This document shows, in pieces, positions 18,772-54,754 of a stretch of 64,000 nucleotides of DNA. The notes below the pieces were generated by a model. It was not told where the DNA came from. It made no database searches and saw only the letters and a program-made list of their open reading frames with translations. The DNA lies in contig JAOUMY010000001.1 of assembly GCA_029881255.1 (NCBI GenBank), positions 434,001 to 498,000 of the forward strand, given 5' to 3'. The translations under genes and the position numbers were made by a program. Origin of the DNA: Gammaproteobacteria bacterium (GTDB taxonomy: Bacteria > Pseudomonadota > Gammaproteobacteria > S012-40). Each line of letters begins with the position of its first letter. Position 1 is the first letter of the stretch.

Positions 18772-20181
18772 TTAACGCTCGTATGCCATTTCGTGAGCAT
18801 AACGACCTTGTGGAACAACAGTACCTTCACGTGCAGTCATCCACATGTTGTACAACCAGACAACATTACCTGTGAATACCATGGTACCGCCAATCCAGCG
18901 AGCAATCATATATGGATGCTCTGCAACAACAACATCAATGTATGGCACTTCGTAGATCTTACCTGCGCCCTGAATCAAACCAGCGATGGTCATAGAGATC
19001 CAGTAGATACAGAAACCTACGATGAAGAACCAGTAGTGAAGGTTAGCAAGAGCCAGAGAGTACAGCTTACGACGCAGTACTGACTGTAGACCAAAGTAGA
19101 CCGCTGCTGTTTCCAGGAAGCTAGACATACCAAGTAGTGCCAAGTGAGCGTGAGCAACGATCCAACCAGTACCATGAACATACCAGTTAATTGCACGCGT
19201 TTGCTGGAAACCACCTTGCATGTTCAATGGAACAGCCAGAAGCACACCAGTGATGGCAAACTTGGTTTCCATATTTTCAACAAACAGTGTCCACTTACCT
19301 TTCATGGTCAACAAAATGTTGGCAACGAAAGCAACTGCTGGGATAAGAATCAATACACCTTCTACAGACGCGAAAGATTTCAACCACTCTGGCAGCGGAG
19401 CTGACATCAAGTGGTGAGAAGCTGGCGTAGAGTAGAACGCAATAATCGCCCAGAAGTGGAGATGCGCAATACGGTGAGAGTACAACGGATTACCAGTCAG
19501 CTTAGGCACAACGTAGTATGCAATCGCTGCAGCAACTGGCGTTATCCAAAGACCCAACACGTTATGCGCAAACCAGAACGTCAGATAGCCCTCAGTAAGA
19601 CCAGTCAGATTGAACAGCTCAGCTGATTGCCCAACCAGGAACACGATGATAACCATAAATACGCAAGCACCGAAGAACCAGTTGGTAATATAGATACCCT
19701 GGGTTTGGCGATGTGCAATAGTCATCCATACGTTAATTCCAAGTGGAACAAGCACGCCAAAGATAACAACCAAATCGATTGGCCAGATCAAGTCGTTATA
19801 TTCACGACCAGAAGTGAAGCCCAACCAAAGCAGGATCAAACCAAGGCTCAGACCGACATTCCAGAGGAATACAGTCCACAGTCCTAGCTTTTCAGACCAC
19901 AGCTTGGTGTTACCTAGTGCTGGCGTCATGTACATCATTGTCATACCGAACGCCATAGATATCCAGCCAACGATAACGGCAAGTACGTGTACCTGACGCA
20001 TGTGACCGAATGCAAACATTTCCGTACCGGTTACCCAGTCAGGGAAAGCCAGCTTGGCCGCATTGAACGAGCCCAGACCCGTACCAACAACAAACCAGAA
20101 AATAGATGAAAAGCCAAAGAATATAGTCGCAGATCCTGGTGGGATCTCGTCATTCCTGGCAAACAAATATTTCATCAGCAT
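18772..20181 (-). CDS. C-family heme-copper oxidase subunit I (CcoN-like, with NorB-like traits)
   Basis: A 469-residue protein with about 12 helices. Heme and copper ligands are all in place: His65 in RQVHVLAVIVGW (low-spin heme), His206 in FWFAHNVLG, His256-His257 in PASHHLMSAPLPEW, and His344/His346 in WIVAHAHLALLG. Tyr250, six residues before the His pair, matches the cross-linked active-site tyrosine of cbb3 oxidases and is absent in NO reductases. Helix VI lacks the NorB glutamate. Two points differ from standard CcoN: the segment NWYVHGTGWIVAHAH is closer to NorB, and Gln322 stands where CcoN has a conserved glutamate (FEGP becomes MQGG). GGGAGG precedes the start. Oxygen reduction is most likely; NO reduction cannot be excluded. 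Confidence 0.9.
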   Translation of the reverse strand: MLMKYLFARNDEIPPGSATIFFGFSSIFWFVVGTGLGSFNAAKLAFPDWVTGTEMFAFGHMRQVHVLAVIVGWISMAFGMTMMYMTPALGNTKLWSEKLGLWTVFLWNVGLSLGLILLWLGFTSGREYNDLIWPIDLVVIFGVLVPLGINVWMTIAHRQTQGIYITNWFFGACVFMVIIVFLVGQSAELFNLTGLTEGYLTFWFAHNVLGLWITPVAAAIAYYVVPKLTGNPLYSHRIAHLHFWAIIAFYSTPASHHLMSAPLPEWLKSFASVEGVLILIPAVAFVANILLTMKGKWTLFVENMETKFAITGVLLAVPLNMQGGFQQTRAINWYVHGTGWIVAHAHLALLGMSSFLETAAVYFGLQSVLRRKLYSLALANLHYWFFIVGFCIYWISMTIAGLIQGAGKIYEVPYIDVVVAEHPYMIARWIGGTMVFTGNVVWLYNMWMTAREGTVVPQGRYAHEMAYER

Positions 20182-20227
20182 TTAAAATTACCTCCCAAGT
20201 CAAGAAACTCCCAGAACAAACGCAAAA

Positions 20228-20317
20228 TTACTCTTGCATTTTATTCAATAGATACCAGGAGAACCACATACTCGAGAATGCGAGCAAAATACCGCAAGCA
20301 CCTGCAAATGTAGCCAT
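20228..20317 (-). CDS. 29-residue membrane microprotein upstream of the ccoN-like gene
   Basis: A 29-codon ORF with GGGGG five bases before the ATG. The sequence starts MATFAGACGILLAFSSMW and ends YLLNKMQE, forming one helix with a short polar tail. It lies 20 bases after the 96-residue gene and 46 bases before the ccoN-like gene, in the same transcript. In position and topology it resembles tiny oxidase subunits (CcoM, CydX type), but no homology is claimed. Confidence 0.75.
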   Translation of the reverse strand: MATFAGACGILLAFSSMWFSWYLLNKMQE

Positions 20318-20337
20318 GTTTACCCCCTTATCTTTTA

Positions 20338-20628
20338 TTACCAACCGGTGTTGTCGCGTTGTGTTTCGACTTCACCATGTTTCTTCATGGCAAGACCGAC
20401 GATAACTGAAAGTGCCAAACCGAACACAATCATTACGATATCGACGAAACCTGAGAATGTAGATGGAGAATATGCTTCCATTCCCCAACCACCCCAACTT
20501 TCATAAGGGCCTCGACCTACAGCGCACATAACTGCTGCGCCAAATACGCTTCCGTTACCCATTCCAGTCGTGAAGACTGCAACAAGGAGAACGAAAAACG
20601 TTTTTCCCAAAGTAAGTTTATTTTGCAT
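20338..20628 (-). CDS. 96-residue two-helix membrane protein, first gene of the core oxidase operon
   Basis: The start at 20628 is fixed by GGAGGGTGG just upstream; the earlier GTG has no ribosome-binding site. The N-terminal helix LGKTFFVLLVAVFTTGMG may be an uncleaved signal. A glycine/tryptophan-rich loop (YESWGGWGME) follows, then a second helix near residues 58-78 and a polar tail. No known family. It leads the operon that continues with the 29-residue protein and the CcoN- and CcoO-like subunits. Confidence 0.7.
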   Translation of the reverse strand: MQNKLTLGKTFFVLLVAVFTTGMGNGSVFGAAVMCAVGRGPYESWGGWGMEAYSPSTFSGFVDIVMIVFGLALSVIVGLAMKKHGEVETQRDNTGW

Positions 20629-20674
20629 TTCCACCCTCCATTTCGAGATGAACCCAGGCACGAACCCTTAAACA

Positions 20675-20703
20675 GGTTCTCACGAATTTACTTGTGAGAA
20701 ACC
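20675..20703 (-). promoter_or_regulatory. Stem-loop in the leader of the core oxidase operon
   Basis: TTCTCAC and GTGAGAA form a perfect 7-bp stem with a 10-base loop, extended imperfectly by GG/CC. It lies about 47 bases upstream of the first gene of the core operon. A TTGACC (minus strand) near 20775-20780 could be a -35 element, but no convincing -10 or FNR box was found. Confidence 0.35.
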
Positions 20704-20869
20704 ATTAAAAGGCTCACACAAAGCCCCTTTTAAGGAAACTAGAGAATCGTGACACATGACAAAATTCAGGTCAAGAAAATTCAAGAAAAATTACGCAGTA
20801 CAGATTGTGATTTATGCACGAAAAAACATTGGTATAGGAAAATAATTTCCGTTACATAACTGAGCAAAC

Positions 20870-21148
20870 GTGTCAGAAAAGTTTAATTTGGGCAAATTAG
20901 TTTTCGATTGTAGAATTGCGGTTTCGCATACAAAAGCTACGAATGAAATGAAAAAGACCGAAATCGCAATCTATTTATTTGTTGGCGCGAGCTCGCTGGT
21001 ATTAATTTCTTACACCGTACGCATGTTCACACAAGGGCTACTAGAGGAAGAGACAATAGTAAAAGCCCAAATTGTGGTCGCAATACTATGGGCATTGGGC
21101 TTAGCAGGACTAGGCTGGGACATTGCAAAGAAAAGACGCCAACAGTAG
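20870..21148 (+). CDS. Small two-helix membrane protein between the oxidase operons
   Basis: 92 residues from a GTG, or 66 residues from the ATG at 20948; neither start has a clear ribosome-binding site. Two helices, IAIYLFVGASSLVLISYTV and IVVAILWALGLAGLGW, are followed by a basic tail, AKKRRQQ. It is the only plus-strand gene between 11 and 24 kb and converges with the gene at 21164. No family recognised. Confidence 0.55.
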   Translation: MSEKFNLGKLVFDCRIAVSHTKATNEMKKTEIAIYLFVGASSLVLISYTVRMFTQGLLEEETIVKAQIVVAILWALGLAGLGWDIAKKRRQQ

Positions 21149-21163
21149 AAGCGCAGAATACTT

Positions 21164-21619
21164 TTACTTAAAAACTCTCAGACGAGATTTCAATTCATCA
21201 AAATCCGAGTCTTTAGCAAATTGCCCTTTATGAAAAACAAATTTTTGAATCTTACCTGTTAAATCATTTCCACTGATGCCTATGCTTTTTCCAGCAAAAT
21301 CCGCAAAAAACCTTATATCCTTCACAAGGTCTATGGTGTCCTGATTCTTCAACTCCAAGGTCACGCCCTTCTTTGAAACATTAAGAGCTGTCGGAGATGA
21401 AGGTAACATCATGAGCCGTGTCTTAAAGATTCGGTTAAACGCTATCAGAAAAATCAACGTGGAGGCAAAAAGCAATACATACGTAAAAGAGGAATTACCT
21501 GAGAACCATAATTTTGACGCATAGGCCATAAGAAAAATAAAGGTAGGAACGTACAATATGAGATCCCACATTACACCTTTTTGATCTTTCGAAAGCTCAA
21601 ATCTATAAGGTTCAGCCAT
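21164..21619 (-). CDS. Membrane protein with two helices and a soluble beta domain
   Basis: A 151-residue protein: a cytoplasmic start, two close helices (about 18-38 and 46-64) and a ~85-residue cytoplasmic domain with alternating strands (ALNVSKKGVTLELKN, DIRFFADFAGKSIGI). The layout resembles small membrane proteins with PH-like domains; this is a topology comparison only. It is the last gene of the four-gene operon 23245-21164, six bases after the thioredoxin-like gene. Confidence 0.65.
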   Translation of the reverse strand: MAEPYRFELSKDQKGVMWDLILYVPTFIFLMAYASKLWFSGNSSFTYVLLFASTLIFLIAFNRIFKTRLMMLPSSPTALNVSKKGVTLELKNQDTIDLVKDIRFFADFAGKSIGISGNDLTGKIQKFVFHKGQFAKDSDFDELKSRLRVFK

Positions 21620-21625
21620 TTCTAT

Positions 21626-22129
21626 CTAACCCTGAGCCTTCTCCACAACTTTACCAATCATGTAGTCCATTTCCTGATAAAGAACTCGGCCCGGTTGTTT
21701 TGAGCGAACGATACCGTTTTTATCTATGATAAAAGTCCATGGATCACCCTTCACTTGATAGGTGACAAATGCCTCGGGATTCATATACTGATCCATGTGA
21801 AGAAAAGCAACCTGGTCGCCATATTTATCCATCATGGATTTGAGCATTTGCAACTGCTTATCACACACAGTACAGTGACCTGGTGTCGCGAACTCTAAAA
21901 CAATGGGTTTTCCCAACGCCAAAGCCTCGTCCACTGACAATTTGTACATGCGCGCATCGGGATAACGATAACTAGTTAGCCTACTAAGATCACCACCAAC
22001 GTCATCAGATTTCTTTGTACGCAGTGACGGAGCTTGCTGACCAATATTCAAGGCACCATCTGGCCGCTCAAGAGAACAAGAAACAAAGAGAGGAAGCCAT
22101 AAAATGACCGCAAGTTTAGCGAGATTCAT
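21626..22129 (-). CDS. Thioredoxin-fold lipoprotein
   Basis: A 167-residue protein from the ATG at 22129. The signal ends FVSC (lipidation at Cys18). The thioredoxin-like domain has the redox pair Cys86/Cys89 in ATPGHCTVCDKQL, the cis-proline loop KGDPWTFIIDKNG, and a typical C-terminal helix. It probably reduces heme-binding cysteines or delivers copper to the periplasmic side of the oxidase, as TlpA and Sco proteins do. The gene overlaps the CcoN-like fragment gene by 14 bases. Confidence 0.82.
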   Translation of the reverse strand: MNLAKLAVILWLPLFVSCSLERPDGALNIGQQAPSLRTKKSDDVGGDLSRLTSYRYPDARMYKLSVDEALALGKPIVLEFATPGHCTVCDKQLQMLKSMMDKYGDQVAFLHMDQYMNPEAFVTYQVKGDPWTFIIDKNGIVRSKQPGRVLYQEMDYMIGKVVEKAQG

Positions 22130-22646
22130 AGCCTTTTTCCCACCCTGTGCAGGTTTTGAATAAATTATATGCCCAAATACAATTCGCAAGAAGCACCAGA
22201 GTGCCAAAAATCCCCATAGTAGCCAACAACGGCTTTACAATATGCTCCACTTCCGCTGGAGTTGAATTCACACTTGCGATACCACCCATAATTCCAGCAA
22301 TGACAAAAAATACAACCATGCCGATCACGCCAATATTGTGCACCCAAAAGTGGGCTTTAACCAAGGTCAAACTATAGATTGGTCGCTTTATCAACCTGGG
22401 AACCACATAGTATACCGCAGCGAATATCGCCATTTCGACCCAACCCAGAAGATTAATATGGGTATGGCCTCGCACAATTAGATTTCCATGTAGGCGGTGG
22501 TCAACAAAATGCCGAAGCTCCGACACCCCACCCATGATTGCGCCCCACGAAAACCCGATCAGACTATATATAATGCAGGCGTAGATAAACCACAGCGTGT
22601 ATTTCCGATACACTATTTCCTGTTGATGTTCCCAAGGTTTAGACAT
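22116..22646 (-). CDS. Stand-alone domain resembling the C-terminal part of CcoN
   Basis: A 176-residue protein from the ATG at 22646; a GTG at 22670 that overlaps the previous stop (TAGTG) is also possible. It has four or five helices. The stretch IVRGHTHINLLGWVEM (His61 and His63), AAVYYVVPRLIKRPIYSLTLV and then AHFWVHNIGVIG closely follows the CcoN region that carries the heme b/b3 histidines and the next helices, including GIMGG. The CuB helices are missing, so it cannot be an oxidase alone. It may bind heme and act in assembly or as a quinol/cytochrome-linked subunit. It is second in the four-gene operon. Confidence 0.8.
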   Translation of the reverse strand: MSKPWEHQQEIVYRKYTLWFIYACIIYSLIGFSWGAIMGGVSELRHFVDHRLHGNLIVRGHTHINLLGWVEMAIFAAVYYVVPRLIKRPIYSLTLVKAHFWVHNIGVIGMVVFFVIAGIMGGIASVNSTPAEVEHIVKPLLATMGIFGTLVLLANCIWAYNLFKTCTGWEKGYESR

Positions 22647-22669
22647 AATTTTTTCCGAAATTTTAAACA

Positions 22670-23245
22670 CTACTCTTTATCAGACGAGGGCTTATCTCTG
22701 ATATCTTCATATTTGCCTTGCCAATCTTCGGGCGCCCACATTTTGACCATATTATCGATAAATTCTGATCTTTCCGGTGGCGGAACTTTAGCAACAGATG
22801 AACCCGCGTCTGCGCGCAATTCCGAAAGAAATATCGCGATTACTTTTCTATCTTCGGCTGGTATATCACTTACGTAAGCAGCTTCTTTAGGCGGAAGGCC
22901 ATGATCCAGCGTCGGTGAACCATAGACTTCTTCAGGCTTCAAAAGAAAACTTTCTATCCATTCGACCGTTCGCTTTGAACCAATCCCATCAAGTGACAAA
23001 CCCATGCTTGTTCCTGTACGTAAAGCTCTATGACACGAATTACAACGATTCTTTCGATAGAGCTCAGAGCCCACTTTTCCAGCTTCAGAAAAGTCGAAAT
23101 GTGTTAGCTGTTGAAACATTGGTTTTTCGGAATTCATACGATAGGTTTCAAGACCTATGTATGCGATAACAGCCAATAGAAAGAAGATACCGAATATAAT
23201 AAAAAGAATTTTTTCGCCGGATTTTAACGGCTGCTTTTTACCCAT
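22670..23245 (-). CDS. Membrane-anchored monoheme cytochrome c
   Basis: A 191-residue protein: KSGEKILF, one anchor helix (about 13-30), then a periplasmic domain with CNSCH in YRKNRCNSCHRALRTGT, LSLDGIGSKRTVEW and a helical end, RKVIAIFLSEL. A charged ~50-residue tail follows. It is a paralogue of the cytochrome at 15685-16182, and it is the first gene of the four-gene operon. It is likely an electron carrier anchored beside the oxidase or beside the CcoN-like fragment encoded next. Confidence 0.87.
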   Translation of the reverse strand: MGKKQPLKSGEKILFIIFGIFFLLAVIAYIGLETYRMNSEKPMFQQLTHFDFSEAGKVGSELYRKNRCNSCHRALRTGTSMGLSLDGIGSKRTVEWIESFLLKPEEVYGSPTLDHGLPPKEAAYVSDIPAEDRKVIAIFLSELRADAGSSVAKVPPPERSEFIDNMVKMWAPEDWQGKYEDIRDKPSSDKE

Positions 23246-23326
23246 TTATCACCACACTTTATATTCGGGACACACAAAATTGGATGCATATAATACCGGG
23301 AAAATAAGCCACACGCTAACAATCAT

Positions 23327-23360
23327 TTAAAAAAAAAGGCGGGCCTCAGGCCCGCCTTTT
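23327..23360 (-). terminator. Rho-independent terminator after the cytochrome c4 gene
   Basis: A perfect 10-bp stem (AAGGCGGGCC / GGCCCGCCTT) with a TCA loop. The long A-run on the left gives a T-run on the minus strand, so it terminates the c4 transcript 16 bases after its stop. The right side has TTTT and could also act on the other strand. Confidence 0.92.
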
Positions 23361-23376
23361 CCTCACACAACACTGA

Positions 23377-24138
23377 TTAATGATCGTATGGTGTGAACAT
23401 ATTTCCATCAGAATAAAAAGATGCATTTGTCAGGTAAGTAGCTGCATTATGAATGTCTTCGTCAGTCATATTGCGTGCAACTTTCTGCATCTGGCTTAAT
23501 GGGTCGTTAGTACGACTTCCATCGCGCCACTTCTTCAACTGGTTTACCAGATATACATACTTCTGCTGGCCAATTTGTGGATATACCGGAGGCGCACCGC
23601 GTCCATTGTAGCCATGACAGGCTTTACAAGCTGGAACCGGTTTGGCTCTAGTACCCTGACCAAACTCAACAAGAGACTTGCCTTTGTGCGTCGCACCGAC
23701 CTCAATCCCTTGCTCTTTGAGAGCATTCATATCAGAGCCTTTCCACTCGTTGCCTTTCTTCTGTGTAGCCTTAAGACTTTCCAGATAAGTCGCAACATCG
23801 TCGCGGTCCTGAGGACTCAAACCTTTGGCATTCGCGTTCATAACAAACATGGTGGTATCCATACGCTTGTCTGTCGCGAAATCCTCAAGTTGCTTTCTCA
23901 GGAAAACGTGAAATTGTCCTGCAATGCGTGGCGTACCCATTGCGTCGTCTCCTGTACCATCCTGACCATGGCATGAAGAACAAGCAGGCACGTCGCCTTT
24001 ACCATTAAAAAATATACTTTTACCGTTAGCAATGTTGCCCGTACCTTTTGGATACTGGGCAGAAGACATCGCTACCGACGGCACTACAATGCTCGCAACA
24101 AATGCTGCCGCCGAAATAGCCGTTATAAAACGTCTCAT
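23377..24138 (-). CDS. Diheme cytochrome c4-type protein
   Basis: A 253-residue periplasmic protein with a signal peptide (MRRFITAISAAAFVASIVV...AMSS) and two class I cytochrome domains. The first has CSSCHGQDGTGDDAMGTPRIAGQ; the second has CKACHGYNGRGAPPVYPQIGQQ. Likely axial methionines lie in the AKGLSP-preceding MNANA region and in RNMTDEDI. Cytochromes c4 donate electrons to cbb3-type oxidases. It is strongly bounded by its own terminator and preceded by a microprotein gene, so it forms a separate transcript at the head of the locus. Confidence 0.93.
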   Translation of the reverse strand: MRRFITAISAAAFVASIVVPSVAMSSAQYPKGTGNIANGKSIFFNGKGDVPACSSCHGQDGTGDDAMGTPRIAGQFHVFLRKQLEDFATDKRMDTTMFVMNANAKGLSPQDRDDVATYLESLKATQKKGNEWKGSDMNALKEQGIEVGATHKGKSLVEFGQGTRAKPVPACKACHGYNGRGAPPVYPQIGQQKYVYLVNQLKKWRDGSRTNDPLSQMQKVARNMTDEDIHNAATYLTNASFYSDGNMFTPYDH

Positions 24139-24260
24139 AAACTGAAGTCCTCCCAGTTAAAGCCTCCCAGATGTAAACCCCACCTTATTTCTTCTCAGCA
24201 AACTTTAAAAACCTGCTCAGACATCTTTACGACAGCAGAAATAAGGACTCTCCAGAATTC

Positions 24261-49678: not shown

Positions 49679-50299
49679 ATGTGTATATACGGCATAGATG
49701 TTGATTATAGACATGTCATGCACTCAGTCGTAAAGCCCCTATGCCGCAACTTAGAAATCATTCTACGTGAAAACCCACGAGGGATTAGCGAATATGAATT
49801 GATCTCCAAGTTGAAAGCGCAAGGTTTATTTTCCCATGAACCTGAAGTTGGTGGGCATCTCCAATTATTTCGCGTTCACTTTCTACTTTTTCATTGTCTT
49901 TACTTGCTAGACCAGGAGCTTACTTGTCAAAAAAAGGGCCGACTGGAAATCAGCGTTCTGAAAATTCGACTAGATGACACGATGGCACAGTCTACCGATT
50001 TGGGATTTCACGATCCGTTGCGGGATTACTATCTCGACATTTCCAATCTACACGATACGAGTGCAGAGGAGGTCGAGTCTCTATTAGGTAAATTCTGGGA
50101 TACATTCTCGCGCCTGGAAGGCAGACAAGCGGCGCTCGAAGTCCTCGGCCTGGTTGACCCTGTAGACAACGTGGAGATTACTGAATGTTATCGCCGTCTA
50201 GCAGCCACCCATCATCCAGATCGTGGTGGCAACAAAAGTCGACTACAAGAAATCAATTTTGCCTATCGACAACTCATTCAAAAAAGCACGTCCTCGTAA
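49679..50299 (+). CDS. DnaJ-related protein with C-terminal J domain
   Basis: A 206-residue protein. The first ~130 residues match the N-terminal domain of the gammaproteobacterial DNAJ_related family (NPRGISEYELISKLKAQGLF, LFRVHFLLFHCLYLLDQ). The last ~55 residues are a J domain with the HPD tripeptide in AATHHPDRGGNKS. It probably stimulates DnaK for specific clients. No zinc-finger or substrate-binding DnaJ domains are present. Confidence 0.9.
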   Translation: MCIYGIDVDYRHVMHSVVKPLCRNLEIILRENPRGISEYELISKLKAQGLFSHEPEVGGHLQLFRVHFLLFHCLYLLDQELTCQKKGRLEISVLKIRLDDTMAQSTDLGFHDPLRDYYLDISNLHDTSAEEVESLLGKFWDTFSRLEGRQAALEVLGLVDPVDNVEITECYRRLAATHHPDRGGNKSRLQEINFAYRQLIQKSTSS

Positions 50300-50898
50300 C
50301 CACCTTCAGGCCAAGAATCTTTCAGGGTTCCACAGCGCCAGTCGCAAGTTGCTGAAATTAACCGGCAAAACATTCCCCAATCCTTCCAATATTTAGCCAG
50401 CAAGAAACAACTACTTAAATAGAAATCTTAACTTCTGTTTTCACAACAGAACCGGCAATTAAACCTCGCCGCTGAGAATAGAAATCTTGCTGGTTGACCA
50501 TGCAATAAGTCTAGATAAAGGAGGGCCATTTAAGGTTACAAGCGCAATTATTCGGACAATTGGCTAGAAGCAGTCTGATTTTGACATCTGGACATAAAAT
50601 TCACCTCTATTTCAAGAAGGCGAACATAAAATTCTAGTGTTTTAGTGCGGTTTGGTTGACAGAGCTGGTCATATAGACAAGACTCAATATAAGACAAAAT
50701 AAAAATCACAATAAATCAATAACAAGAGACGTGGGGAATATAATGGGAAATTCACAAACTACGGCTGCAATCGGCGGCTACATCTGACGAGCCCGATAAA
50801 ATTTATAACAGGGCCGGAAACGAAATAACACTTTCAAAATACTTTTCGATTCCCAAAGCCCCAGATCAACAATCAGGCAAAAGTCGTCAGGTGTGTCT
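50300..50898. other. ~600-bp non-coding region before the 26-heme cytochrome gene
   Basis: No gene of normal length is visible. Features seen: a 7-bp hairpin (TTCTGTT / AACAGAA) at 50433-50451; the 11-mer ATAGAAATCTT at 50419-50429 and 50478-50488; the 11-mer ACATAAAATTC at 50592-50602 and 50624-50634; a TTGACA at about 50659-50664 as a possible -35 element without a clear -10; and a 14-codon mini-ORF at 50743-50787 (MGNSQTTAAIGGYI) with GGGG upstream. These suggest a long regulated leader for the cytochrome gene. Confidence 0.4.
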
Positions 50899-52842
50899 AT
50901 GGTGGGAGCGCAATTCAAGGATATAACAATCCTTCGAAGCAAGGTGTTTTTAGCGCAACTTGTTCTCGTTGGCGCTGTGCTATTGGCCTCATCATTTGCC
51001 CACGCCAATACCACCTCTTACGTAAATACAAATAATTTGCCTCTCAGTCACGGCGTATTCAACTATGCTTGCGAAAGCTGTCACCAGGCAGATGACTCCC
51101 CCATACTAAACATCCAGCATGAGCAATTTCAAAAAACATGTCACGAGTGTCACAATACTTTCGTTGCAACAGGTCCGTCACCGCAACACATACCTGTTAC
51201 AAGTAGCTGTGAGAACTGCCATCAAACAGATCGCTGGGAGATTAGCTATTTCGCACACAATGTAGACGAGGTTGGATGCAATAACTGTCACAATGGCCGG
51301 ATTGCAATGGCGCCTGGGATAGAACACACCGGTCACGGACAATGCGACGAATGTCATAGCACCGATGACTGGTCTGTTACCCTTGCCCAACTAGCGCCTA
51401 AGGGACGCACGACATCGATCGGCATGCTCGCCGTCGGCCAAGGTCCAAATCATATACCTTCTAGTACGAACTGCCCGGCTTGTCATACGACAACAGCATG
51501 GGTACCTGTTTTTACAGTAGATCATGCAGAAGTTATTGGCACATGTCAGTCCTGCCACAATGGCTCCACCGCACCGGGGAAAACCACCAATCACGCAGCC
51601 ACCACCGACGATTGCGGCGCATGTCATACAACTCAGGGGTGGCGCATTGGTGTAGTAATGGATCATACACAGGCATTAGGCGAATGCGCTGCTTGTCACA
51701 ATGGGCGAAGCGCCTCCGGCAAGTCGACATTACACATTCCTGTTTCCGATAATTGTGGTGCATGCCACAGCATAACGGCCTGGTCACCGGTCTTGATAGT
51801 TGATCATGCCGAAGTCATTGGTGATTGTGTTTCATGCCACAATGACCGTCGTGCAATGGGCAAACCTGCCGGACACATACAAAGCACAAGGGTCTGCAGC
51901 GCATGTCACACAACCGGATCTTGGCTAGAGATACTGGCGGTAGATCATAATGAAGTCATAGGAACATGTAACAGCTGCCATAATAGACCCGCCGGCCATA
52001 TAGCAACAACGAATGAATGTGGCGCGTGTCATAGCACCACTGGCTGGCTGAACGTCGTCGCCGTTGCTCACACCGAAGTCCTTGGAGGATGTTTCGACTG
52101 CCATAACGGCAATATTGCTGCTGCAAAATCCACGAGCCACGTTAACACCAGCAACTTCTGTGGAAACTGCCATTCCACTGCAGCCTGGGTACCGGTACTT
52201 GCCGTCGATCATAACCAAACCACTGGCGCATGTATCAGCTGTCATGATGGTTTCAGTGCAACCGGAAAGAGACGTATACATATTGCCAGTAGTGATCGTT
52301 GCGAAAGCTGTCATAGTACTAGCAGTTGGACGCCAGCGACGGTAGTAGATCACCAGGAAGTGATGGGGAGCTGCAGAAGTTGCCACAATAACAGTGTTGC
52401 TCCAGGCAAATCAGCACGCCACATCGCAACTTCAGATGTTTGTGATGCCTGCCACACGACTACTAGCTGGTTCCCAGTTGTACTCGTCGATCATAACGAA
52501 GTTGTTGGATTCTGTAGCGACTGTCACCGTCGCCCTGCAGGTCACATACGCACAACCGATTTCTGTGAATCTTGTCATGACAGCAATGGCTGGGTTCCTG
52601 TATTTACCGTAGATCATAACGAAGTATTAGGGCAATGCAGCAATTGCCACACCTTGCCAGCAGCGCATGGTGTAACCACCAATCTTTGTAGCGCATGTCA
52701 TACCAACACCGTGAGTTGGGCTCCTGTGCTAGCCGTAGATCACACTCAGGTAATCCAGTGCGCATTCTGCCACCCACTACCAGCGGGACATGACCCAGTA
52801 ACACAAGACTGTAGTGCGTGTCATACGCCCGGTGCTTGGTAA
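50899..52842 (+). CDS. Secreted 26-heme c-type cytochrome
   Basis: A 647-residue protein from the ATG at 50899; a GTG six bases upstream is an alternative. The signal peptide ends SFAHA. I count 26 CxxCH motifs, evenly spread to nine residues from the C-terminus (last: CSACHTPGAW). From about residue 190 the protein is built of ~44-residue units, each with two hemes, of the pattern C-x2-CH-NG...GK...HI...C-x-ACH-TT-x-W-x-PV...VDH-x-EV-x-G. The VDH histidine in each unit may be a distal ligand. Such chains conduct electrons across the periplasm or to outside acceptors. No lipobox, porin or outer-membrane motif is present. Confidence 0.95.
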   Translation: MVGAQFKDITILRSKVFLAQLVLVGAVLLASSFAHANTTSYVNTNNLPLSHGVFNYACESCHQADDSPILNIQHEQFQKTCHECHNTFVATGPSPQHIPVTSSCENCHQTDRWEISYFAHNVDEVGCNNCHNGRIAMAPGIEHTGHGQCDECHSTDDWSVTLAQLAPKGRTTSIGMLAVGQGPNHIPSSTNCPACHTTTAWVPVFTVDHAEVIGTCQSCHNGSTAPGKTTNHAATTDDCGACHTTQGWRIGVVMDHTQALGECAACHNGRSASGKSTLHIPVSDNCGACHSITAWSPVLIVDHAEVIGDCVSCHNDRRAMGKPAGHIQSTRVCSACHTTGSWLEILAVDHNEVIGTCNSCHNRPAGHIATTNECGACHSTTGWLNVVAVAHTEVLGGCFDCHNGNIAAAKSTSHVNTSNFCGNCHSTAAWVPVLAVDHNQTTGACISCHDGFSATGKRRIHIASSDRCESCHSTSSWTPATVVDHQEVMGSCRSCHNNSVAPGKSARHIATSDVCDACHTTTSWFPVVLVDHNEVVGFCSDCHRRPAGHIRTTDFCESCHDSNGWVPVFTVDHNEVLGQCSNCHTLPAAHGVTTNLCSACHTNTVSWAPVLAVDHTQVIQCAFCHPLPAGHDPVTQDCSACHTPGAW

Positions 52843-52936: not shown

Positions 52937-54676
52937 CTAAAGCCGCTGACTTTCGTCCAAAGTTAAAACTGGCGAAAAGTGGGTCACGGCATGGCATGCA
53001 TGACATAGTTCAGTCGTTTGAATATGTGAATCCGGTTTTCCGGGGACGAAATTCCCACTGTGGCAAACGGAACAATCGTTGGCGTATTGAGTGTGATCTA
53101 TGAATACCGATAGCCAATCCAGCTTGGAATGACACCGTTCACATAGATCACTGGTTCCATTGTGGACGGTATTTTCCAGATAATGATTTGTGTCTATGTG
53201 ACAATCGAAACACAAGGTATCGTAAGTTGTTTCGTGCGCGCTTGACCCATACAGGCTTGTCCAGTCTGTTTTCACATGACAAAACTGACAGTCCTTTTCC
53301 GTTGGCACATGACCATGTACCGCTAAATAGTCATGACAATTCCGACACGTTCCTAGCGCCTTTGTATGCTCAAGACGCAACGAGGTTTTCCAACTAAATT
53401 TCGTATGACACGCCTGGCAGCGACTCGATGTTACAGGATGCCTGGCAAAGATTTTCTGCGGAAATTTTCCGTGGCACTTTGCACACCCGCTGACAACACC
53501 ATCATGCTTGTAGCGTTGTGCGGCCTGGTCCATAACCAGTGAATATACTGAACCGGGAAGTTGGCTACCCATATACCAGAAACGCGCACTATGACATCGC
53601 CCACAGTCAGAGTAGGTAAACTGTTCGGATGGATGCGCTTCATCACCTACCCCATTTGTACCATTATGACAATCGGCACAAAATAATCCGCCATGTTTGG
53701 TTGTTACCACTACCGTGTCAGAATGCGACAGTCCCAAGGTGTCCCTAACCACAAGCTGCACAACATAGTCGCCACGGATATCCACGCTCAGTTGCGATTT
53801 TGAACTTTGGCCGTTCATAACATGGGCCTGGCTTGTCGGCGGTTTAGCAATGAGCTCCCACTTGTAAAATAGGCCATCATTATTCGGATCGTAAGAGGCG
53901 CTTCCGTCCAGGGCATATACACCCGGATTATGTATTAGGATATCTTTCCCTGCCTCCGCCACCGGGGGCAAATTGACTGTTGGCTGCGGGTTAGGTGAGG
54001 CTTGGTCGGAAACGTCGATGACAATAATTGCCGGTTCACTTGTTTCGAATCCGTCGGTTACCAAAAGATGTAAAACATAAACGCCTGTCGCGTCCAATCG
54101 TAATTCAGTCTTTACTGCCAATTGATTAGCAATGTCACTTTGGCTTCCGTCGGGCTTGGAGATTATCTGCCAGTGAAAAGTCAACTCGTGTCCATCACCA
54201 TCTGAAGAACGACTGCCATCCAGGGAAACACTGCGCCCTACCTCCGGTATACCGAAGAAAACCGGCTTCGCAAACGGCCGTTGATTCAGCGCTGTAACGA
54301 TGACTTGATCGGGCGCACTATTTAGTTGTCCATCATTCACATGAAGCTGAAAAATAAAAAGACCAGGACGGTCTGGGACAAATTCAAACCCTTGTTGATC
54401 GGCTTCGATCAAGATTAAGTTAGAACCCGATGGTTTACGAACTATCTCCCAATGATAAGTAAGACGTGCGCCCTCCAGATCGCTAGAGCCAGCGCCATTT
54501 AGTGCAATACGGGTCCCAACGATTATTTCCCTGTCAGCACCCGCATCAGCAACAGGCGTCGCATTGGCTTTTTCCACATCTGCCACTCTCGGCAAACCCG
54601 GTTCCTCACAAGCCCAACCACACAACGCAAAGACTGCTACACAACAGAACGGCCAAAACCTGCGCGTATATCGCAC
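52937..54676 (-). CDS. PKD-domain lipoprotein with 10 heme c motifs
   Basis: About 579 residues from the GTG at 54676, which has GGGG upstream; a TTG at 54700 is possible. The signal ends with lipobox LCGWAC. Three PKD/REJ-type Ig domains follow (for example ADAGADREIIVGTRIALNGAGS, TFHWQIISKPDGS, FYKWELIAKPPTS). The C-terminal ~230 residues carry 10 CxxCH motifs, from CADCHNGTNG to CHACHAVTHF. The heme part uses the same repeat pattern as the 26-heme protein. It is likely surface- or periplasm-exposed, with the PKD part as binding stalk. It converges on the 26-heme gene. Confidence 0.92.
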   Translation of the reverse strand: MRYTRRFWPFCCVAVFALCGWACEEPGLPRVADVEKANATPVADAGADREIIVGTRIALNGAGSSDLEGARLTYHWEIVRKPSGSNLILIEADQQGFEFVPDRPGLFIFQLHVNDGQLNSAPDQVIVTALNQRPFAKPVFFGIPEVGRSVSLDGSRSSDGDGHELTFHWQIISKPDGSQSDIANQLAVKTELRLDATGVYVLHLLVTDGFETSEPAIIVIDVSDQASPNPQPTVNLPPVAEAGKDILIHNPGVYALDGSASYDPNNDGLFYKWELIAKPPTSQAHVMNGQSSKSQLSVDIRGDYVVQLVVRDTLGLSHSDTVVVTTKHGGLFCADCHNGTNGVGDEAHPSEQFTYSDCGRCHSARFWYMGSQLPGSVYSLVMDQAAQRYKHDGVVSGCAKCHGKFPQKIFARHPVTSSRCQACHTKFSWKTSLRLEHTKALGTCRNCHDYLAVHGHVPTEKDCQFCHVKTDWTSLYGSSAHETTYDTLCFDCHIDTNHYLENTVHNGTSDLCERCHSKLDWLSVFIDHTQYANDCSVCHSGNFVPGKPDSHIQTTELCHACHAVTHFSPVLTLDESQRL

Positions 54677-54754
54677 ATCCTTTCCCCACTGAAATATCAA
54701 ACATGACTTGTTTTTTTATTTACAGCATAGGGAATATCTAACGACTGATCAAAC

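Follow-up and report, generated by a model that had tools for sequence, protein, structure and literature searches.

The 64,000-nucleotide stretch of gammaproteobacterial DNA analysed here (the window) contains a gene for a cytochrome with 26 heme-binding motifs, which raises the question of where such a protein would work in the cell and with what it would exchange electrons. The open reading frame reads through 647 codons with zero internal stops, and translation could alternatively begin at a GTG at 50893. The count of 26 CxxCH motifs in 647 residues, first given in an earlier note made from the sequence, was borne out by translation and a motif count, while 1000 composition-preserving shuffles gave a mean of 0.3 motifs and a maximum of three. 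Since the protein has 52 cysteines in total, each of them sits inside a CxxCH. The locations of the gene, its parts and its surroundings are given in Table 1.

The spacing of the motifs divides the protein into an irregular five-heme block, a heme-free linker and a regular 21-heme array, a substructure absent from the earlier note. Steps of 23, 23, 23, 22 and 43 residues are followed by an alternation of 24 and 23 that includes four contracted steps of 17 residues. This gives a two-heme unit of 47 residues (24 + 23), or of 41 when contracted, so that the tandem two-heme array described before is present as the regular array, with a unit other than the ~44 residues reported. In the linker a type-A heme unit appears to have been lost or never to have been present. 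Within the regular array, H-x6-CxxCH-(T/S)xxxW units alternate with VDH-x6-CxxCH-NG-x-x-A-x-GK units. The VDH histidine attributed to the repeat was found in eight units, with MDH or VAH in two more. A histidine stands exactly seven residues before the first cysteine in 24 of the 26 motifs and some upstream histidine precedes every one, and thus each heme has a candidate distal ligand of its own. The chain ends, as had been noticed, right after the last heme, with only the five residues TPGAW remaining.

Table 1. Positions of the 26-heme cytochrome gene and its parts, of its neighbours in the window, and of the two PCC3 clusters found elsewhere in the genome.
Feature	Position	Strand	Remarks
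DnaJ-related protein gene	49679..50299	+	600 bp upstream of the 26-heme gene
CDS, 26-heme cytochrome, 647 aa	50899..52842	+	ATG start; Pfam Cytochrome_C7
Predicted Sec signal peptide, 36 aa	50899..51006	+	...SFAHA/NTTSY; hydropathy, cleavage site placed by eye
Irregular N-terminal block, hemes 1-5	51070..51357	+	spacing 23,23,23,22; motif spacing
Heme-free linker, residues 154-184	51358..51450	+	43-residue gap, hemes 5 to 6
Regular array, hemes 6-26 (21 hemes)	51451..52824	+	motif spacing, His positions
PKD-domain protein, ten C-terminal CxxCH, probable surface lipoprotein (weak lipobox)	52937..54700	-	convergent to the 26-heme gene
PCC3 cluster, complete, 63+21 hemes	L023:5962-16666		contig 8
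PCC3 cluster, complete, 47+21 hemes	L025:701-9816		contig 10

Hydropathy reaches its maximum at residues 11-34, with no second comparable hydrophobic segment. The Sec-type signal peptide thus agrees with the earlier description of the protein as secreted as far as export from the cytoplasm is concerned, and this agreement does not extend to the crossing of the outer membrane. The mature peptide has a mass of 65.0 kDa, or 2.50 kDa per heme, and a predicted net charge of about -22 at pH 7; there are 24.9 residues per heme, and the composition is rich in Ser, Thr, Ala and Gly. Proteins with less than 5 kDa per heme form the "peptide minimized" class, all members of which are electron-transfer proteins (Edwards et al. 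2020, PMC7096707), and by this criterion the 26-heme cytochrome belongs to that class. The same study reports that length rises linearly with heme number, at ~27 hemes per ~200 Å, approximately the width of the periplasm, from which the length of the 26-heme cytochrome would be about 19-20 nm. AlphaFold2, run with an alignment of the window sequence and one relative, reached a mean pLDDT of 36 for an 8-heme fragment and 52 for a 4-heme fragment, values too low for a structural claim, so that the shape and heme ligation of the protein are inferred.

We compared the protein with known families and structures. The Pfam profile PF14522 (Cytochrome_C7) matches it with 100.5 bits, above the curated cut-off of 24.8. 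Among named NCBIfam models, that of the DmsE/MtrA decaheme family (TIGR03508) scores best, with 101 bits, which is below its cut-off of 192, and the NCBIfam model TIGR04257 ("nanowire_3heme") gave no match at E 0.001. The PDB matches are MtrC/MtrF, MtrA (6r2q chain A), the ActA-type 8k9e and a small tetraheme cytochrome (STC-type); phmmer and hmmsearch, which unrelated filaments could escape, placed no solved filament cytochrome among them. The paired spacing is common to MtrA/DmsE and the 26-heme cytochrome, the H-x6-CxxCH pattern is partly so, and 6r2q chain A is among the best PDB matches, but those proteins have 10 hemes rather than 26 and the TIGR03508 cut-off was missed. A profile search showed that MtrB_PioB is absent from the genome, and an MtrCAB-type conduit was rejected on this basis. 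Cytochrome c7 concatemers (PF14522), for which the Geobacter dodecaheme c7 polymer is a comparator, have in common with the 26-heme cytochrome the c7-type minimal packing, but the repeat here is a two-heme and not a three-heme one. A very high heme number per chain also characterises the giant MHC of ANME and Methanoperedens, which have S-layer domains and up to 113 hemes (PMC7082337). Unlike these, the 26-heme cytochrome has neither an S-layer domain nor a transmembrane helix, belongs to a bacterial outer-membrane setting and has an unrelated architecture.

The closest likeness is to the extracellular cytochromes of the PCC3 porin-cytochrome cluster, a genome-based proposal with a putative function (He et al. 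2017, PMC5566968). These cytochromes contain 10-85 hemes, are predicted to have a wire-like shape and have been assigned a molecular-wire role (PMC5566968, PMC10734462); their extracellular MHC have 22-39 residues per heme, with a median of 26 (PMC5566968), and a survey of Gallionellaceae suggested a storage role as well (PMC10734462). The 26-heme cytochrome, with many hemes in tandem repeats and a residue-to-heme ratio within this range, has the features by which PCC3 extracellular cytochromes are recognised, and it resembles them also in repeat type, in its Ser/Thr/Ala/Gly-rich composition and in the variable heme number. Its identity is 43-45% with the most similar giant (PCC3 extracellular-type) cytochromes, including those of the genome's own PCC3 clusters, and 22-24% with the periplasmic cytochromes of 21 hemes, indicating that it is built like a PCC3 extracellular cytochrome.

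Two complete PCC3 clusters are encoded in the same genome (4.97 Mb in 44 contigs), at the loci L025 and L023. Besides an inner-membrane protein (IMP) of ~300 aa, each encodes a periplasmic cytochrome with 21 hemes, a barrel protein, of 759 or 675 aa, and a giant extracellular cytochrome, of 47 or 63 hemes. A motif scan recovered the published IMP motifs in both, namely SGxxG and two HX13H, of which at least one has the form WX3HX13H. A 4Fe-4S/FAD oxidoreductase-like or ferredoxin-type gene lies beside the IMP gene at both loci. The same scan, which also found the IMP (HX13H and SGxxG) in relatives, detected none in the 64-kb window. There is no porin gene near the 26-heme cytochrome among the window open reading frames from 40 to 64 kb, and no 17-25-heme gene of the MPGK type (21-heme periplasmic) in the 64-kb window. 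In contrast to the PCC3 extracellular MHC, the 26-heme gene thus stands alone, without an IMP, a porin or a 21-heme partner, and its product has neither the CSGxCHxY nor the Gly-rich C-terminal tail of the cluster-linked copies. Gly-rich tails (GGGGM/GGGHM) end many giant cytochromes (L020, L025, L034-L037, L049, L050 and L058).

Heme proteins of this size had been called rare, a view supported neither by the published range of PCC3 cytochromes nor by the genome itself. The genome has at least 16 such genes: this many, each with ten or more CxxCH (10-66 hemes per protein, 422 motifs in total), were counted in ten 20-kb regions picked by similarity to the 26-heme cytochrome. The large cytochromes in those regions have 66, 63, 47, 42, 32, 27, 26, 21 and 21 hemes. 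The other seven carry 10-14 hemes on non-heme N-terminal parts, with PKD domains in two and no named domain in five, and a lipobox, judged partly by eye, is present in several of them. At L024:7672-14932 (contig 5), three genes in tandem encode predicted lipoproteins that are 744-824 aa long and carry 10-14 hemes at the C-terminus; their N-terminal ~500-600 residues have no Pfam match.

The gene neighborhood offers one candidate partner. The hemes of the convergently encoded PKD-domain protein are of the same c7 type as those of the 26-heme cytochrome, and on gene position it is a possible partner. Its paralogue at L025:16382-18196 is 38% identical and lies ~6.5 kb past the L025 PCC3 giant-cytochrome gene; such proteins, with PKD and 10-11 c7-type hemes, may be surface-anchored contacts for giant cytochromes. 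For the DnaJ-related gene there is no evidence of membership in the cytochrome system. Scans for sigma-70 promoters and terminators around the 26-heme gene performed no better than on shuffled sequences.

The giant cytochromes differ at their N-termini in a feature defined in this analysis. We use the term cap for a single N-terminal module, FDHxxTGFxLxGxH..CxxCH, that has the repeat type of the 21-heme periplasmic cytochrome. One copy is present in nine of nine giant cytochromes adjoining PCC3 genes (nine loci, partly from related genomes) and none in the 26-heme cytochrome, in which the periplasmic repeat motif has zero occurrences. Also capless are its 50-heme relative, a 42-heme protein and three proteins with 66, 66 and 67 hemes (L019, L030, L031); some of the capless loci are on short contigs, where neighbouring genes may be missing. 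Some capped giants have no visible PCC3 genes close by, and several of these are on short contigs; in our sample, therefore, linkage implies a cap and the reverse does not hold. We interpret the cap as a docking piece that may join an extracellular cytochrome to the trans-envelope chain, of which the 26-heme protein would be the undocked version. One capped protein with a Gly-rich tail, encoded at L049:983-10807 (genome G112, contig 131), has 3274 aa and 129 CxxCH in one intact frame; unless the repeats are misassembled, this exceeds 113, the highest number recorded as of 2020 (PMC7082337), and later records may be higher.

The nearest relative of the 26-heme cytochrome is a 50-heme protein (L029) from another genus of the same family. 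Over their last hemes the two proteins arrange regular and contracted steps in almost the same way, the relative having one additional contracted pair; both end in QDCSACHTPxxW, and a 37-residue gap in the relative is at a similar place to the 43-residue gap here. The matching pattern suggests that the C-terminal parts are probably orthologous. The N-terminal parts differ by some two dozen hemes, a two-fold difference in heme count. No gene neighborhood conserved between the two was found, and the case for orthology therefore rests on the C-terminal pattern and the sequence. Recent duplication of repeats within the 26-heme gene was rejected, as the units mostly resemble those of other proteins more than their own neighbours: the nearest unit belongs to the same protein for two of 11 units here, as against 25 of 28 in the 63-heme PCC3 protein. 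The repeats of the latter (L023:7989-12644) have been recently amplified or homogenised, unlike those of the other giants of the genome. Two other origins were rejected, a viral one because no relative occurs among viral contigs, and a horizontally acquired island because the GC3 of the gene, 0.45, is inside the range of its neighbours (0.42-0.53).

The genome also encodes a T2SS secretin, RuBisCO, heme-copper oxidases, SoxB and DsrA, the last four of which suggest that the organism is probably a sulfur-oxidising, CO2-fixing autotroph. At ~18880-24156 the window contains heme-copper oxidase genes and a two-CxxCH open reading frame (23380-24156), possibly a cbb3-type oxidase region.

The reading that we favour, and consider slightly better supported than not, is that the 26-heme protein is an orphan, undocked extracellular wire or reservoir of the PCC3 type that would trade electrons with the PCC3 surface cytochromes, the heme lipoproteins and an external donor or acceptor. 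After Sec export, up to 26 c-type hemes would be attached in the periplasm, the protein would fold as a thin chain of bis-His hemes of roughly 19-20 nm, and it would cross the outer membrane, perhaps via the type II secretion system. Outside the cell, electrons may pass to or from the heme lipoproteins and the surface cytochromes of both PCC3 conduits, and the protein could link the cell surface to a mineral, an electrode or a neighbouring cell, as an extension wire or an electron reservoir. For a sulfur-oxidising autotroph, such a protein could serve to take up electrons as well as to discharge them. The long-range electron transfer proposed in the earlier note is in line with the low mass per heme, the PCC3 repeat and the two conduits in the genome; the extracellular part of that proposal comes down to the signal peptide and the resemblance to relatives whose own extracellular location is predicted.

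A different placement of the same wire, bridging the inner and outer membranes within the periplasm, the role put forward for PCC3 periplasmic cytochromes with 21-24 hemes, seems to us rather unlikely. In its favour, 26 hemes would correspond to ~200 Å, almost exactly the published width of the periplasm (PMC7096707), and the protein has a Sec signal with no lipobox and no further recognisable export signal. The repeats, however, are closer to those of the extracellular than of the periplasmic PCC3 cytochromes, the periplasmic motif is missing, and the 50-heme and the capless 66-67-heme relatives would exceed an upright periplasmic span. By the published relation (PMC7096707) the 50-heme relative would measure ~37 nm, more than an upright molecule could occupy in a periplasm ~20 nm wide. 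The repeat type and this relative thus make a periplasm-spanning wire less likely. We give somewhat less weight still to an electron store or capacitor, in which exposed bis-His hemes in the matrix or the periplasm would buffer electrons without directed long-range conduction. The very low peptide-to-heme ratio, which is expected to go with exposed hemes and transient contacts (PMC7096707), the many parallel paralogues of variable length and the storage role proposed for PCC3 cytochromes (PMC10734462) are all consistent with it, but the conserved 23/24-residue spacing and the strictly kept ligands fit an ordered chain, and storage alone would have no need of such regularity. Storage and wire roles are not mutually exclusive.

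Polymerisation into a nanowire resembling the OmcS, OmcE and OmcZ filaments, a possibility raised in the earlier note, is in our estimation very unlikely. Extracellular multiheme cytochromes can polymerise (PMC9473688), and capped array ends could permit head-to-tail contacts. Nothing that we tested indicates polymerisation, however: by phmmer and hmmsearch these filaments have no sequence match to the protein and none is among its PDB matches, OmcS has 7.5 kDa per heme (PMC7096707) rather than 2.5, the single upstream histidine per heme leaves no obvious ligand for a neighbouring subunit to supply, and a two-fold length difference among relatives is unlike a fixed polymer subunit. Least probable of all is that repeat duplication left behind a gene that is not expressed or is decaying, with a non-functional or unhemylated product. 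The apparent loss of one heme unit between hemes 5 and 6 and the lack of a recognisable upstream sigma-70 promoter would agree with such decay. The reading frame is nevertheless intact, a relative in another genus has the matching C-terminal pattern, and the repeat units are only ~47% identical to one another while all 26 motifs and their histidines have been kept, indicating constraint on the heme sites.

Giant repeat cytochromes of the PCC3 type with 10-85 hemes were already known (PMC5566968, PMC10734462); the present analysis adds to them the cap, a class of orphan members that lack it, close relatives of unequal length, and a measure of how far these genes have expanded within one genome. 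We tentatively suggest, as a possibility short of an even chance, that the capless giants with 26, 50, 66, 66 and 67 hemes form a distinct class of free, undocked extracellular wires of evolvable length, which would be loaded at the cell surface by PCC3 conduits carrying a capped cytochrome and would give a matrix of differing reach. The proposal provides a simple and testable part list, in which capped cytochromes would be docked and capless ones free wires. The 26-heme member, with an apo mass of ~65 kDa, is of a size suited to expression and structure solution, and a comparison with its 50-heme relative would show directly how wire length affects conduction.
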